From positions 1 to 54,545 of the forward strand of contig VXUF01000154.1 in the NCBI GenBank assembly GCA_009837085.1: a stretch of 54,545 bases of DNA. The letters run 5' to 3'. Source of the DNA: Holophagales bacterium. Its GTDB lineage: Bacteria; Acidobacteriota; Thermoanaerobaculia; Multivoradales; Multivoraceae. Under the pieces are notes generated by a model. It saw only the letters and a program-made list of their open reading frames with translations, made no database searches and was not told the DNA's origin. Made by a program: the position numbers and the translations under genes. This document shows positions 20,816 through 25,925 of this stretch, one piece after another; position 1 is the stretch's first letter; every line of letters begins with the position of its first letter.

Positions 20816-22033
20816 TCAGGCGGCTCGGCGGAGCTCGATGGCGCTACGGCGAAGCGCGCGGACTCGTTCAGCCAGCCTGCCGACCTCGCTTCTCAGGCTC
20901 TCGATGCTGCCTGACAGGTCGAGTGTGGCGATTTCGAGTTGCTTCCCGGCGTGGCGAACTCGATGCTCGACGTCGTCGGCCTCTCCCTCGGCGTAGACCA
21001 GCAGGCCTCCGGGCAGGTCGAGGGCGGTGGTGTAGGCGAGGAGCTGGTAGAGGTCGGCGTTGGGCACGTGGGCGTGCTTGACGCGCTTGTACTTTGCGTC
21101 GCCGACGAAGGTGCAGGTCAGGCCGTTCCACCAGGAGAGGTCCGGCTTGAGTCGCACCCGTCCTGCTGTATCGAGGTGGATTGGCGGCAATCGACGGTCT
21201 GACCGGAACGCGCGTTCGGATAGGCGGAGCTCCTCGCGTAGCGCCCGCGTCACGAACTCCTGGAAGACGTCGTTCATGTCCATCAGGAAGCCGTTCGCCC
21301 GCACGGCGCCGCGCGCGGCTTCAAAGGACGTGTGGCGAAGGATGAGCCGCGCGAGGGTGACCACCTCCCGGTAGTGCGCGTTCAGGCGGTCGAACTTCAC
21401 TTCGGGGACGGTGGTCGGCGGGAACTCCACAAGGCTCACGTTGTCCAGGGTCGCGGCGACCCACGCGAGATCGAGGCGCGACTGTGCCGAGCGGATGCGG
21501 AGTTTCCCGAGGCGGTCGGCCGCGGCCTTCACCAGCCGGTTCGCGAGTACGTCGTCGGTGAAGTCGTCGTAGCGGATCTCGACCGGTAGCGGCACTCCGA
21601 ACCTGCGTCGGATCTGGTCGGCGACGCGGATGCGTCCGCGGACCGTGTGCAACGCTTCTTCTTCCGTGCGATAGCCGTGGAGGAGTCCGCGAGCGAAGGC
21701 CCGGCGCGCGGCGCGTGTGAGCGCGGGCACGAGAGCTTCGATGAGCGTCTGTCGCCGAGCGAAGTCGAAACTCTCCTCCCGGAAGTCGACGCCCATGGCG
21801 TAAGACGCCAGGTAGAGCAGACGGCCGATGGGCAGCTTGGGTTCGATGGCGACGGAAAGGTCGCCGATCTCGAGCGCGCCGATCGTGGAACCGGGCCTGA
21901 GGTAGTACGCGTCGCTAGTCCCGGCCGCGGGTTCGATGCTCGCGAGGAGGGGCTTCAGTCTGTCGCGTTCCCTGACCGAGAGCGCCACCGGCTCTTCAGT
22001 TGCGGTCCACTCGCGGAGGTCAAGATTCCGCAT
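20816..22033 (-). CDS. mcrC: McrC-type nuclease subunit of modification-dependent restriction system
   Basis: 405-residue partner of the McrB-type ATPase, providing the PD-(D/E)xK nuclease. The N-terminal half has IGALEIGDLSVAIEPKLPIGRLLYLASYA (in parts: VAIEPKLPIGRLLYLASYA), which is the usual McrC N-terminal region; the nuclease core is LKPDLSWWNG with Asp298 and VGDAKYK with Asp312 and Lys314, then DLYQLLAYTTAL. All catalytic residues are intact. ATG at 22031-22033 overlaps the end of mcrB by 14 nt. It is last in the CBS-HEPN/mcrB/mcrC operon. In LlaI/McrBC systems this subunit cuts DNA (or possibly RNA in relatives). Confidence 0.92.
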   Translation of the reverse strand: MRNLDLREWTATEEPVALSVRERDRLKPLLASIEPAAGTSDAYYLRPGSTIGALEIGDLSVAIEPKLPIGRLLYLASYAMGVDFREESFDFARRQTLIEALVPALTRAARRAFARGLLHGYRTEEEALHTVRGRIRVADQIRRRFGVPLPVEIRYDDFTDDVLANRLVKAAADRLGKLRIRSAQSRLDLAWVAATLDNVSLVEFPPTTVPEVKFDRLNAHYREVVTLARLILRHTSFEAARGAVRANGFLMDMNDVFQEFVTRALREELRLSERAFRSDRRLPPIHLDTAGRVRLKPDLSWWNGLTCTFVGDAKYKRVKHAHVPNADLYQLLAYTTALDLPGGLLVYAEGEADDVEHRVRHAGKQLEIATLDLSGSIESLRSEVGRLAERVRALRRSAIELRRAA

Positions 22034-24467
22034 CGCCAGTCGAACCGTTCTCTTCGTTGCCTTCCGCGTCGCCGTTGCCGTCGGCCGCTTCGTTCGCGTT
22101 CGGATCGCCGTCGGCGGCGTGGTCGGTGCCGACGCCGCCAGCCGCACGGCGCAGCTTGTCGAGATCGAACTCGGCAAGCCGGTCCGTCTCACCGTAGAGG
22201 TGCTCCTCGACGTACGGCAGGACGTTGTGTTCCCAGATCAGCCGGACCTTCTCCTCGTCGAGGTCTTCCTTGATGAAGTAGCTCGGTCCGATGGCCGCCT
22301 GCCGGTCGTTTAGCTTGCTGTTCGCGCGCTTCATGACGTCGGCCACCCAGGCCATGTCGGGTGCGTTCCTTTCAAGCCAGCGACCGAGCAGTCCTTTGAT
22401 CGGCGGTTTGTCGGGGTGGAACTCGACGAAGTGGAATCGGCGGCGCAGCGCCAGGTCGACCAGCGCGATCGAGCGGTCGGCGGTGTTCATCGTGCCGATG
22501 ATGTAGAGGTTCTCCGGCAGACTGAACGGTTCATCGTCGGCCGAGGCGTACTGGAGCCTCATGTCTTCGTCGCGGTACTCAAGCAGGAAGTACAGCTCGC
22601 CGAAGACCTTGGCCAGGTTGCCCCGGTTGATCTCGTCGATGATCAGGAAGTGGGGGCTCTTCGGCGCGTCTCGGGCCGCTCTTGCCGCGGTGAGGAGTGG
22701 GCCATCTCGCAGTTCGAAGCCAGCCTGGCCCTCCTCAGTCAGGGTCGGCCGGTATCCCTGAACGAAGTCCTCGTAGGCGTAGGACGGGTGAAACTGTACG
22801 AGCTCGACCCGATTGTCGGACCCCGCGAGGTGTCGCGCCAGTTTTCGGGCAGCGTACGTCTTGCCGGTGCCCGGCGGCCCCTGGAAGATGACCTGTCGCT
22901 TGTCGTTAAGCAGGCGGGCTATCGTGTCGAGATCGGCCTCGTCGTAGAGCAGGTCGCTTGCGAGATCCGAGAGCTCGGCTTCCCCAAGTGGCTTGCCTGC
23001 GTCTCCATACCAGTGGTGCAGGAACCTGTCGTAGTCCTGGTCGGTTCCCTTGAGCGTGAAGTCGATCAGGGCGTTCGCGGCCCAAGGCAACGTGCCCGAA
23101 TCGCGAGCAACTTTCCACACCGTCCCCCGATAGGTGTAGAAGTACCACTCGCGGGGTTCCTCCTCCGGCGTCCAGTTAACGCGTAGATTGCGGCCATCTC
23201 CCATGTTCTCGGTCACGACACCTGTGGCCTTGATCGCCATGGTGGAGATACCTCTGCCCTTGCTGTCGAAGGGGAGGTCGTGCTTCTTCACCGTGGTGGT
23301 CTTGATGGCGATTCGGTCCCCGGGCTGTATCGCCTTCACAAGGTCCAGGTACTTGTCCTCGTAGCCGTTCTGCCAGGTTCCTTCCTGGACGAAGCGATCC
23401 GTGTGATCGTCTGGGTCCCAGAAGGCGCCGACGAACCAGCACGATCGCGCTGGTGGCTCATCCCCACTTCCCGCGTGTTGCGTGTGTCTGAGTGCCCAGA
23501 CGACGGATTGTGCTTCGAGTCGTGTGCTTGGGCGGCTGTGGTCATGCCCGGTCGTCTGACGGATCAACTCGTCGAGAAAGCCCAGTGCGTGTTCGTACTG
23601 AGCTTCTTCGGCCGCTTCCCCCGACAGAACCTCGATGCCCAGGCGCCGGTAGGTTGAATCGAACACCGATCGCATGAACGGTGGGTACCCGGAGGGGTCG
23701 AGCGCCATCAACAGGACGGAGATCGTTCTGAGTCGCGTGCCTCTGCCGTTCGTGCCGTACTCGGAGTGGCGTACGGCCCCTGGCGGTACATTCCCGCCCT
23801 TCGACTCCCACGGGTAGAGATTGGAGAAGCCGCGAATGCGCTCGCTGATTGACCGGTCGGCTTCGGTCCAGAGAGCGCGAAGCGCCCGGAGCACGGCCTC
23901 GGGCTGGTCGTCGATCCACTGGCGAAGTTTGGCGGCATCTCGCCAATCCATCGGGTGGTACTGGCCTTGCGTTGCAGCCTTCAAGAGGTTCTGCCAATCG
24001 CTTCGGCGCGCCAATGCCGCTCGTCGGGCCTTCCGCAGAGCGTCGCCGATCCTCAGCTTGTAGTGGACTTCTTCGCTATCCAGCTTGCCGCTCTCGACGT
24101 AGCGCTGCACGTCTTCGAGGTACCGGTTCCATCGCTCGCGATCGTCGGCGGAGTCTTCGGCCTTCTTGGTGTCTTGTGCGTCGAGGAACTCGCGATAGAG
24201 GCCAATGGCCTGCTTGAGAGTTTGGGTTCCGGTGTAGGGGTTGCCGTCTATCCGGATGCCGTGCTTGGGAGGTCTGGCGCTTCGCTGATCTTCCTTGGAG
24301 TACTCGAACTGGCGGAGCAACGCGTTGAGACCGTCTTTGTTCCAGTGCGTATCGAGATCGCCCTTGTGTTGCTCAACTCTCCGGCAGTTGGATAGCCGCG
24401 AGGCGACAACGGTCTCCTTCTGTCTCTTGACATCCCTCAACCACTTCCGAAACGCCTGATCCTGCAT
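22020..24467 (-). CDS. mcrB: McrB-type AAA+ GTPase/ATPase with EVE-like domain
   Basis: 815-residue motor of a type IV-like restriction system. Layout: helical N-terminal region rich in basic residues (about 1-245); a second region (about 246-310) with ISVLLMALDPSGYPPFM; an EVE/PUA-like domain (about 343-452) with SCWFVGAFWD, YLDLVKAIQPGDRIAIK and EWYFYTYRGTVWKV; and an AAA+ core with Walker A GPPGTGKT (530-537), Walker B FLIIDEINRG (607-616) and the McrB signature GTMNTADRSI (658-667). An acidic, low-complexity tail (about 776-815) ends the protein. EVE-like domains bind modified bases, suggesting modified-nucleic-acid recognition. ATG at 24467 follows the CBS-HEPN stop by 30 nt. Confidence 0.93.
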   Translation of the reverse strand: MQDQAFRKWLRDVKRQKETVVASRLSNCRRVEQHKGDLDTHWNKDGLNALLRQFEYSKEDQRSARPPKHGIRIDGNPYTGTQTLKQAIGLYREFLDAQDTKKAEDSADDRERWNRYLEDVQRYVESGKLDSEEVHYKLRIGDALRKARRAALARRSDWQNLLKAATQGQYHPMDWRDAAKLRQWIDDQPEAVLRALRALWTEADRSISERIRGFSNLYPWESKGGNVPPGAVRHSEYGTNGRGTRLRTISVLLMALDPSGYPPFMRSVFDSTYRRLGIEVLSGEAAEEAQYEHALGFLDELIRQTTGHDHSRPSTRLEAQSVVWALRHTQHAGSGDEPPARSCWFVGAFWDPDDHTDRFVQEGTWQNGYEDKYLDLVKAIQPGDRIAIKTTTVKKHDLPFDSKGRGISTMAIKATGVVTENMGDGRNLRVNWTPEEEPREWYFYTYRGTVWKVARDSGTLPWAANALIDFTLKGTDQDYDRFLHHWYGDAGKPLGEAELSDLASDLLYDEADLDTIARLLNDKRQVIFQGPPGTGKTYAARKLARHLAGSDNRVELVQFHPSYAYEDFVQGYRPTLTEEGQAGFELRDGPLLTAARAARDAPKSPHFLIIDEINRGNLAKVFGELYFLLEYRDEDMRLQYASADDEPFSLPENLYIIGTMNTADRSIALVDLALRRRFHFVEFHPDKPPIKGLLGRWLERNAPDMAWVADVMKRANSKLNDRQAAIGPSYFIKEDLDEEKVRLIWEHNVLPYVEEHLYGETDRLAEFDLDKLRRAAGGVGTDHAADGDPNANEAADGNGDAEGNEENGSTGDAES

Positions 24468-24497
24468 CTCCGCCTTCCTCCTTCGTTCTTCGCTTGG

Positions 24498-25553
24498 TCA
24501 GTTCGAGTTGCCTGACCCAGCGCCTCCGGCGGCCGTCTCCACGACGCCCATCCGCGCGAGGTGGCGGAAGAACCCGACGAGGCCTTGCAGAGCGTCCTGC
24601 TGCTTCGGTTCCAGGCCGTCGGGGCGGAAGTGCATTACCTCGTTCCGAAACTGCCGGATGGCCTCCATGCGCGCCACGAACTCCTTGCGGCTGAACTCCA
24701 CGCCCAGCCTTTCCCAATTCTCCGGTTTCTGGAGAAGCCGACAGTAGCCGCCAAGCGTGAGGTCGGCGGTACCGGTTGCGGTGAGCCCCTCCGGCAACGC
24801 CGCCTGGATTTCTTCGACCCTGAAGTGACCATGCACGAGCGTGTGCAGGTACTTCTCGATCTCTCCGATCAGGAGGAACGGGCTGGCCAGTTCCTGGAAC
24901 TCCAGGCTCAGGTCGCTCGTCGTGACGATGCCGACGATCTCGTCAGTGGAGCTTCGGACCAGCGTGTAGCCGTGGCTTGCGACGGCGGAAACGGCGTCGA
25001 GGAGTGGGGTTCCCAGACGGACTTCCTGCACATGCGGGTTCATGCAGTGCCTGACGAGGCTGCACTCGACGCCGGATGACAGCCGTGAGCCGATCGACTT
25101 CCAAGTGATCATGCCCCAGATCTTCCGGCGGTTCTTCGTGACCGGCAGTTGGGAATAGTCGTTGAGCAGCATGACGGTGGTTGCGTCATGAAGGGGCTTG
25201 TCCGGATCGACCACTTTCGGGCGATGGTGGGCGGCAGCCAGTGCGTCGATGCGGACAGTTGGATCATCGATCGCCACGGGTGCTACGGACCCGTTGGCGC
25301 TCTCGTGGTCGAGTTCGATGGAGATCTCGTGGTCGATCCAGACGCTCTCGAAGTCCGGGCTCGTTCGGAGTCCGCTTTCTTCAAGAGCGTTGCGGATCTT
25401 GGAGTTCACCAGACGCCCCCTCTTCGCGTAGCCGAAGAGTTCCAGAAGGTGTCGAACGCTCAGCTTCTGTTGATTCGGCGCCGTGCCGCGCTTGACGGCT
25501 TCCCGGGCCTCCCGCCCTACACGTTGCAGGAAGGTCTGTGCTTCGGAACTCAT
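24498..25553 (-). CDS. CBS-pair protein with C-terminal HEPN-like domain, first gene of McrBC operon
   Basis: 351 residues. Residues about 28-82 look like a small helical/winged domain (KLSVRHLLELFGYAKRGRLV). About 112-220 form a CBS pair, with DATTVMLLNDYSQLPVTKNRRKIWGMIT and DAVSAVASHGYTLVRSS...IVGIVTTSDL (quoted in parts: YSQLPVTKNRRKIWGMIT; EIVGIVTTSDL). The C-terminal part (about 221-335) resembles Swt1-like HEPN domains: FLLIGEIEKYLHTLV, DLTLGGYCRLL and the motif RNEVMH (303-308), an RX4H site as in active HEPN RNases. CBS pairs bind adenosine nucleotides, so an alarmone-gated RNase is a reasonable guess. It sits 30 nt before mcrB on the same strand. HEPN assignment is from motif and helix pattern only. 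Confidence 0.75.
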   Translation of the reverse strand: MSSEAQTFLQRVGREAREAVKRGTAPNQQKLSVRHLLELFGYAKRGRLVNSKIRNALEESGLRTSPDFESVWIDHEISIELDHESANGSVAPVAIDDPTVRIDALAAAHHRPKVVDPDKPLHDATTVMLLNDYSQLPVTKNRRKIWGMITWKSIGSRLSSGVECSLVRHCMNPHVQEVRLGTPLLDAVSAVASHGYTLVRSSTDEIVGIVTTSDLSLEFQELASPFLLIGEIEKYLHTLVHGHFRVEEIQAALPEGLTATGTADLTLGGYCRLLQKPENWERLGVEFSRKEFVARMEAIRQFRNEVMHFRPDGLEPKQQDALQGLVGFFRHLARMGVVETAAGGAGSGNSN

Positions 25554-25673: not shown

Positions 25674-25713
25674 GGCACGTGGCGCGTCGTGGCGCTGAGC
25701 TGAAGTTGTCCAG

Positions 25714-25887
25714 CCTGAACCGGGCCGAGGGGGAGGGTCCCAGGGGGCTGGAGGCGAGCGACTGCCGATGTGCTCCCAGTAGCTGAGGTCGTACCGGAGC
25801 GAAGCCGACCGAAGCGAACCCCACCCTCACATCCCCTCAAGCGGGGGTGAGCGTCCCCTGGGACCCTCCCCCTCGGTCCGGTTCAGG
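25714..25887. repeat. 174-bp element bounded by 33-bp near-perfect inverted repeats
   Basis: Left arm 25714-25746 begins CCTGAACCGG and ends TCCCAGGGG; the right arm 25855-25887 is its reverse complement with one mismatch at arm position 11. The 108-bp centre has an extra hairpin (CTCAC...GTGAG enclosing CCCC...GGGG, about 25826-25850). No transposase is encoded and no flanking duplication is evident. It could be a MITE-like remnant, a large hairpin attenuator/terminator between the carboxylase and the restriction operon, or a structured RNA. Confidence 0.7.
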
Positions 25888-25925
25888 CGGGTGTAGTCAT
25901 CACCGTCCCGTCCGCGCCGTCGTCG

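Follow-up and report, generated by a model that had tools for sequence, protein, structure and literature searches.

A predicted DS-11 family CBS-HEPN gene ahead of mcrBC in a Holophagales bacterium, and the repeated placement of DS-11 genes beside restriction genes

Results

Layout of the locus

The DNA analysed here, called the window throughout, is a stretch of 54,545 nucleotides from a Holophagales bacterium of the phylum Acidobacteriota (contig VXUF01000154.1). Between positions 25553 and 20816, three genes follow one another on the minus strand, on which all genes and domains of the locus described below lie, in the order CBS-HEPN, mcrB and mcrC. The first gene encodes a CBS-HEPN protein of 351 amino acids (24498..25553), the second an 815-residue McrB (22020..24467) and the third a 405-residue McrC (20816..22033). 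Coordinates, strand and order are as the first-pass annotation had given them: 30 nt separate the CBS-HEPN gene from mcrB, and mcrB and mcrC overlap by 14 nt. In the first junction, the sequence AGGAGG precedes mcrB. The start of McrC was placed at the ATG at 22033, which overlaps mcrB and matches the start of relatives. A longer version of 458 amino acids beginning with GTG was considered and rejected because some relatives begin at the later ATG.

Upstream of the three genes, just past the 3' end of a carboxylase-type gene, the window carries a 37-nt inverted repeat (25710-25746 and 25855-25891) whose arms are 95% complementary and lie 108 nt apart. Five McrBC loci of the genus that have no CBS-HEPN gene retain both arms in the same position.

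The CBS-HEPN protein and the DS-11 family

The 351-residue protein matched the NCBIfam profile NF053863.1 (DS11_antiphage) with an E-value of 1.2e-95 and 320 bits, above the curated cut-off of 260, and its residues 34-328 aligned with positions 1-304 of the 305 positions of the profile. By this match, the protein is a member of the DS-11 anti-phage family. DS-11 is a one-protein anti-phage system with CBS and HEPN domains; validation in E. coli showed that its one gene suffices without McrBC (DefensePredictor, Science 2026, PMC13092281), and the remark of the first-pass annotation that a CBS-HEPN fusion in defence had not been characterised is therefore out of date. Defence by the E. coli protein was abolished by the CBS exchange Y157A or by HEPN catalytic mutants, and the authors proposed control of the nuclease by an adenine derivative yet to be discovered (PMC13092281). 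The tyrosine in HDYSQLPV of the E. coli protein, its residue 157, corresponds in the alignment to Y133 of the window protein, while RNDVMH at residues 330-335 aligns with RNEVMH at 303-308 (R303/H308; 24630..24647). The two proteins have in common the N-terminal domain, the CBS pair, a HEPN-like domain, the essential tyrosine and the active-site residues. The ligand pocket and the catalytic residues, whose necessity was shown for the E. coli homologue, have equivalents in the window protein and may be needed there as well. The earlier idea that ligand binding by the CBS pair gates the RNase gains support, by analogy, from the E. coli mutants (PMC13092281) and the equivalent residues found here.

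An AlphaFold2 model of the protein, made with 8 sequences (mean pLDDT 77, low pTM of 0.39), shows three parts: an alpha/beta domain at the N-terminus, then a CBS pair, and a C-terminal domain made of helices. The N-terminal domain (residues 1-82, 25308..25553) is confident in the model and, in an alignment of relatives, is kept in most DS-11 members; these 82 residues matched no Pfam family. A 131-aa protein of another genome (G108, L069:7300-7695) has the N-terminal domain of DS-11 fused to a different C-terminal part, with neither CBS nor HEPN. The CBS pair (residues 100-216, 24906..25256), which includes Y133, was recognised in two stretches by PF00571 (E 4.5e-11) as well as by alignment with E. 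coli DS-11, and model residues 96-224 matched solved CBS pairs with Z scores of up to 16. Both this assignment and the RNEVMH motif had been read correctly from the sequence at the outset.

The HEPN-like domain (residues 217-334, 24552..24905) is all-helical in the model, with the motif at a helix end. Across 16 relatives, the R and N of the RNxxxH motif are invariant and the H is nearly so. HEPN_Swt1 of Pfam was matched by four of these 16 relatives (best E-value 5e-4), and STY4199-HEPN or DUF4145 by single ones. The window segment itself gave no HEPN match in Pfam and no credible relative among PDB sequences. In the fold searches, matches to the CBS pair took up the lists; as the segment could not be searched apart from it, the HEPN assignment rests on sequence, the arrangement of helices, the motif and what has been published for the family.

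McrB and McrC

McrB contains an AAA+ GTPase domain (AAA_5, PF07728, E 1e-23; residues 526-678, 22434..22892), matches the McrB domain PRK11331 with an E-value of 4e-51 and carries GPPGTGKT (Walker A), IIDEINR (Walker B) and the classical NxxD motif in the form MNTADRS. McrC matched PF10117 (E 7.5e-54), and its PD-(D/E)xK site (D298 ... D312-A-K314, 21092..21142) is intact in the translation, with PD at residues 297-298 and both D312 and K314 present. The McrB motor and the McrC nuclease named by the first-pass annotation are both borne out by these matches. The NxxD GTPase of McrB and the DUF2357-type region and PD-DxK nuclease of McrC are shared with McrBC Type IV restriction systems and, by analogy, we infer that McrBC of the window would cut modified DNA.

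Residues 343-452 of McrB (approximate limits; 23112..23441) matched neither Pfam, including its EVE family, nor PDB sequences. A model of this region (pLDDT 60) matched almost only structures of the EVE/YTH/ASCH superfamily, among them 2eve, PH1033, VcaM4I and YTH proteins, with a best Z score of 7.3. The fold of this low-confidence model points, if weakly, to the EVE-like domain that had been proposed for the region, which is likely to be one. Fusion of an EVE-like reader to McrB is common (PMC11090510), and the window differs from EVE-containing McrBC Type IV restriction systems in having an additional CBS-HEPN gene upstream. The EVE region is missing from McrB of some species of the genus, and in some species the N-terminal region of McrB is seemingly duplicated, giving proteins of 981-1013 aa (L063:725-3766, L061:2415-5360). 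As judged from these protein sequences, different versions of the McrB reader replace one another within a single genus.

Pairing of DS-11 with McrBC within the genus

In our sample of 21 genomes of the genus, McrBC was present at one locus in 10. Close McrC relatives (65-94% identity) were found in nine genomes besides that of the window, plus one fragment, and the McrBC loci that were fetched share the flanks of the window, a HAD-type hydrolase and a 1158-aa carboxylase-type protein, as far as the contigs reach. A DS-11 gene lies upstream of mcrB in three of the 10 loci, those of the window and of the genomes G400 and G402, and at the remaining seven McrBC occupies the same site without DS-11. 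A tblastn search of the McrBC loci that lack DS-11 revealed no remnant of it. Two further species of the genus have the same order of CBS-HEPN, mcrB and mcrC, which indicates that the arrangement is more than chance.

The two further paired loci differ from the window in their parts. In G400, DS-11 and mcrB are joined by an ATGA overlap, and the McrB paired with DS-11 is without the EVE region. Taken together, the 30-nt spacing with AGGAGG in the window and the ATGA overlap in G400 suggest co-transcription of DS-11 and mcrBC. A deletion in the DS-11 gene of G402 (L061:1492-2325) takes out about 62 residues in frame; RNxxxH is lost with them and the CBS pair kept. The earlier proposal that base-modification reading is coupled to an RNase is therefore not supported as a rule, the EVE region being missing from McrB in one paired locus and the HEPN site from DS-11 in another. 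A PIN-like gene (L061:873-1337) lies just upstream of DS-11 in G402, and in a genome of the genus that lacks DS-11 at this site (G117), the slot upstream of mcrB holds a MunI-like Type II restriction gene (L067:5843-6742).

On the McrC tree, the presence of DS-11 needs three changes. The closest relative of the window DS-11, with 79% identity, stands alone in genome G184 without McrBC, and the DS-11 tree joins the window copy and this lone copy as sisters (100/98 support), apart from the copies linked to McrBC in G400 and G402. A 471-aa open reading frame downstream of DS-11 in G184 was examined as a partner and rejected, for it starts with TTG, has no Pfam match and looks antisense-like. Because McrBC occurs without DS-11 at most loci and the closest DS-11 stands alone elsewhere, the two are separable. 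A survey of 149 genomes of the class detected DS-11 in no other genus.

DS-11 in other genomes

We examined 28 DS-11 loci. Of these, 20 came from Acidobacteriota and the other 8 from collections of E. coli, plasmid and viral sequences, which were the only source for other phyla. Outside the three loci of the genus, none of the loci examined had McrBC beside DS-11. Of the expectation that the CBS gene would be a conserved neighbour of mcrBC, what stands is its occurrence in three of ten McrBC loci of one genus; it does not extend to the other DS-11 loci examined. Of 5426 complete E. coli genomes, 127 carry DS-11; in the two records inspected the gene is a solitary one next to an integrase gene, whereas the window copy heads an McrBC operon.

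Other restriction genes do adjoin DS-11. In G136 and G747, genomes of different classes, the gene lies within type I operons of the order hsdR-DS11-hsdM-hsdS, following hsdR with a 10-nt gap or a 4-nt overlap and followed by hsdM and hsdS (L035:7326-12526 and L097:5653-12281; the L097 protein is without the N-terminal domain). On contig QHZR01000410, a DS-11 gene begins 18 nt after a GmrSD-like gene (Pfam E 0.001, below the cut-off), and its catalytic His is replaced by Gln. In G223, DS-11 comes after an Eco57I/ResIII pair at a larger gap. DS-11 has accordingly joined restriction genes repeatedly, namely McrBC, HsdR-DS11-HsdM-HsdS twice, a GmrSD-like gene and an Eco57I/ResIII pair, and at least four changes are needed for the restriction-adjacent label on the DS-11 tree. 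A second DS-11 of G400 (L068:1473-9066) adjoins an ApeA-like HEPN protein and is divergent from a 1507-aa Mrr-ResIII-methylase protein.

Many DS-11 copies lie among housekeeping, integrase or prophage genes. The family was not found in phage records and was present on five distinct viral contigs (L071 and L081 being the same contig), on four of which no restriction neighbour was seen among the genes examined. Of the copies on IMG/VR contigs (L077, L078, L079, L080), some are next to phage structural or ParB-type genes, which indicates that the family travels on prophages.

As a control for adjacency, 23 neighbours of 14 other CBS genes were inspected, and no restriction family was present among the 25 of 48 families listed, a comparison that is small and yields no enrichment figure. 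ResIII-type domains number 7-40 per genome. From these figures and the control neighbours, chance adjacency of DS-11 and restriction genes should be rare; clustering in defence islands alone would still yield some.

Discussion

Fusion of CBS and HEPN domains in a defence protein, linkage of HEPN proteins to restriction and EVE-containing McrB are already known. CBS-HEPN and CBS-HEPN-HD proteins had been predicted to cleave RNA under nucleotide gating (Anantharaman 2013, PMC3710099); the window protein has the CBS-HEPN fusion in common with them, and they were described without reported restriction genes. The gene of PrrC is embedded in an hsdMSR operon, and links to R-M systems are known for at least 16 HEPN clades (PMC3710099). 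What is apparently new, to our knowledge, is that DS-11 has repeatedly been joined to restriction genes. In a literature search that took in few subscription journals, we found no paper on a CBS-HEPN protein with McrBC or on DS-11 in restriction operons.

We consider it somewhat more probable than all alternatives taken together that DS-11 was set before a resident McrBC operon, and that the two form co-transcribed layers of defence in which an autonomous, nucleotide-gated DS-11 takes part in a loose but repeated partnership. McrBC would read modified DNA through the N-terminus of McrB and its EVE-like domain, McrB would translocate with GTP and McrC would cut, as in the systems to which they are related. 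The CBS pair of DS-11 would bind an adenine nucleotide or a derivative that changes during infection, and binding would make the HEPN dimer act as an RNase, halting the cell or the phage independently of McrBC. On such a scheme McrBC would act first, with DS-11 as a nucleotide-gated backup RNase. A shared transcript of DS-11 and mcrBC is probable from the spacing of the genes. That the partnership is loose is evident from the loci themselves, in which DS-11 stands beside McrBC, in type I operons, beside other restriction genes or alone. The placement between hsdR and hsdM in two genomes speaks against two separate layers, as it is closer than a neighbourhood within a defence island and could reflect a physical link.

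A bolder reading, which we regard as tentative and rather unlikely, takes DS-11 for a portable RNase that senses nucleotides and has entered DNA-restriction operons (McrBC, type I and others) over and over as a fail-safe; its activity would depend on an adenine-type ligand as well as on the state of the restriction enzyme. A rival explanation does without autonomy: the restriction complex would hold the CBS-HEPN RNase inactive, or report its own failure, and the RNase would fire when a phage blocks restriction, with the CBS pair adding a nucleotide check. PrrC, which accompanies EcoprrI (hsdMSR), and the R-M-linked HEPN clades (PMC3710099) provide precedent, and such a role would explain the positions that DS-11 takes up in restriction operons: in two genomes it lies between hsdR and hsdM, in two it adjoins mcrB and in one a GmrSD-like gene. 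In both PrrC and the window, a gene for a HEPN RNase lies inside or beside a restriction operon; however, the sensor of PrrC is an ABC NTPase in place of which DS-11 has a CBS pair, and control by the restriction enzyme was shown for PrrC, whereas the likeness of the window to it is one of gene placement. Against a guard of this kind, E. coli DS-11 defends alone (PMC13092281), the closest relative of the window copy has no partner, the HEPN active site is deleted in G402 with McrBC kept, and the catalytic His is Gln on QHZR01000410. In addition, the partners of DS-11 are unrelated restriction systems, which makes one conserved interface unlikely. Unrelated partners, lone copies and the decay of HEPN sites all speak against DS-11 being tied to restriction in an obligate way, and we hold the guard role to be unlikely.

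Alternatively, DS-11 could be a bare neighbour that occupies a tolerated slot between the carboxylase gene and mcrB with no functional or regulatory tie. Its patchy presence (three of 10 loci, with three changes on the McrC tree), its decay in one of the three paired loci and the fact that the slot elsewhere holds a MunI-like restriction gene or nothing are in keeping with this. The orientation is the same and the spacing tight in each intact case, however, and DS-11 is placed similarly tightly in other restriction operons, so that we judge the absence of any tie to be quite unlikely. Finally, an integrated RNA-targeting system akin to CoCoNuTs, in which the EVE-containing McrB would find modified RNA and the HEPN protein would cut it, is highly improbable in spite of a similar list of domains (a reader of the YTH/EVE superfamily, an McrB motor and HEPN), because CoCoNuTs are defined by an NxD GTPase motif (PMC11090510) and have coiled coils and no CBS protein, whereas McrB of the window has the classical NxxD motif and its McrBC is for that reason not a CoCoNuT, the PD-DxK site of McrC appears active and the EVE region is missing from one paired McrB. 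The likeness to RNA-targeting McrBC variants noted in the first-pass annotation is given up on the same motif.

DS-11 was published as a lone gene. For its trigger, the natural pairings with McrBC and with type I restriction offer a concrete place to look, and candidates are shifts in nucleotides while DNA is being destroyed, or the failure of restriction. The same DS-11 lineage occurs with and without a partner inside one genus, and these loci form ready test pairs.
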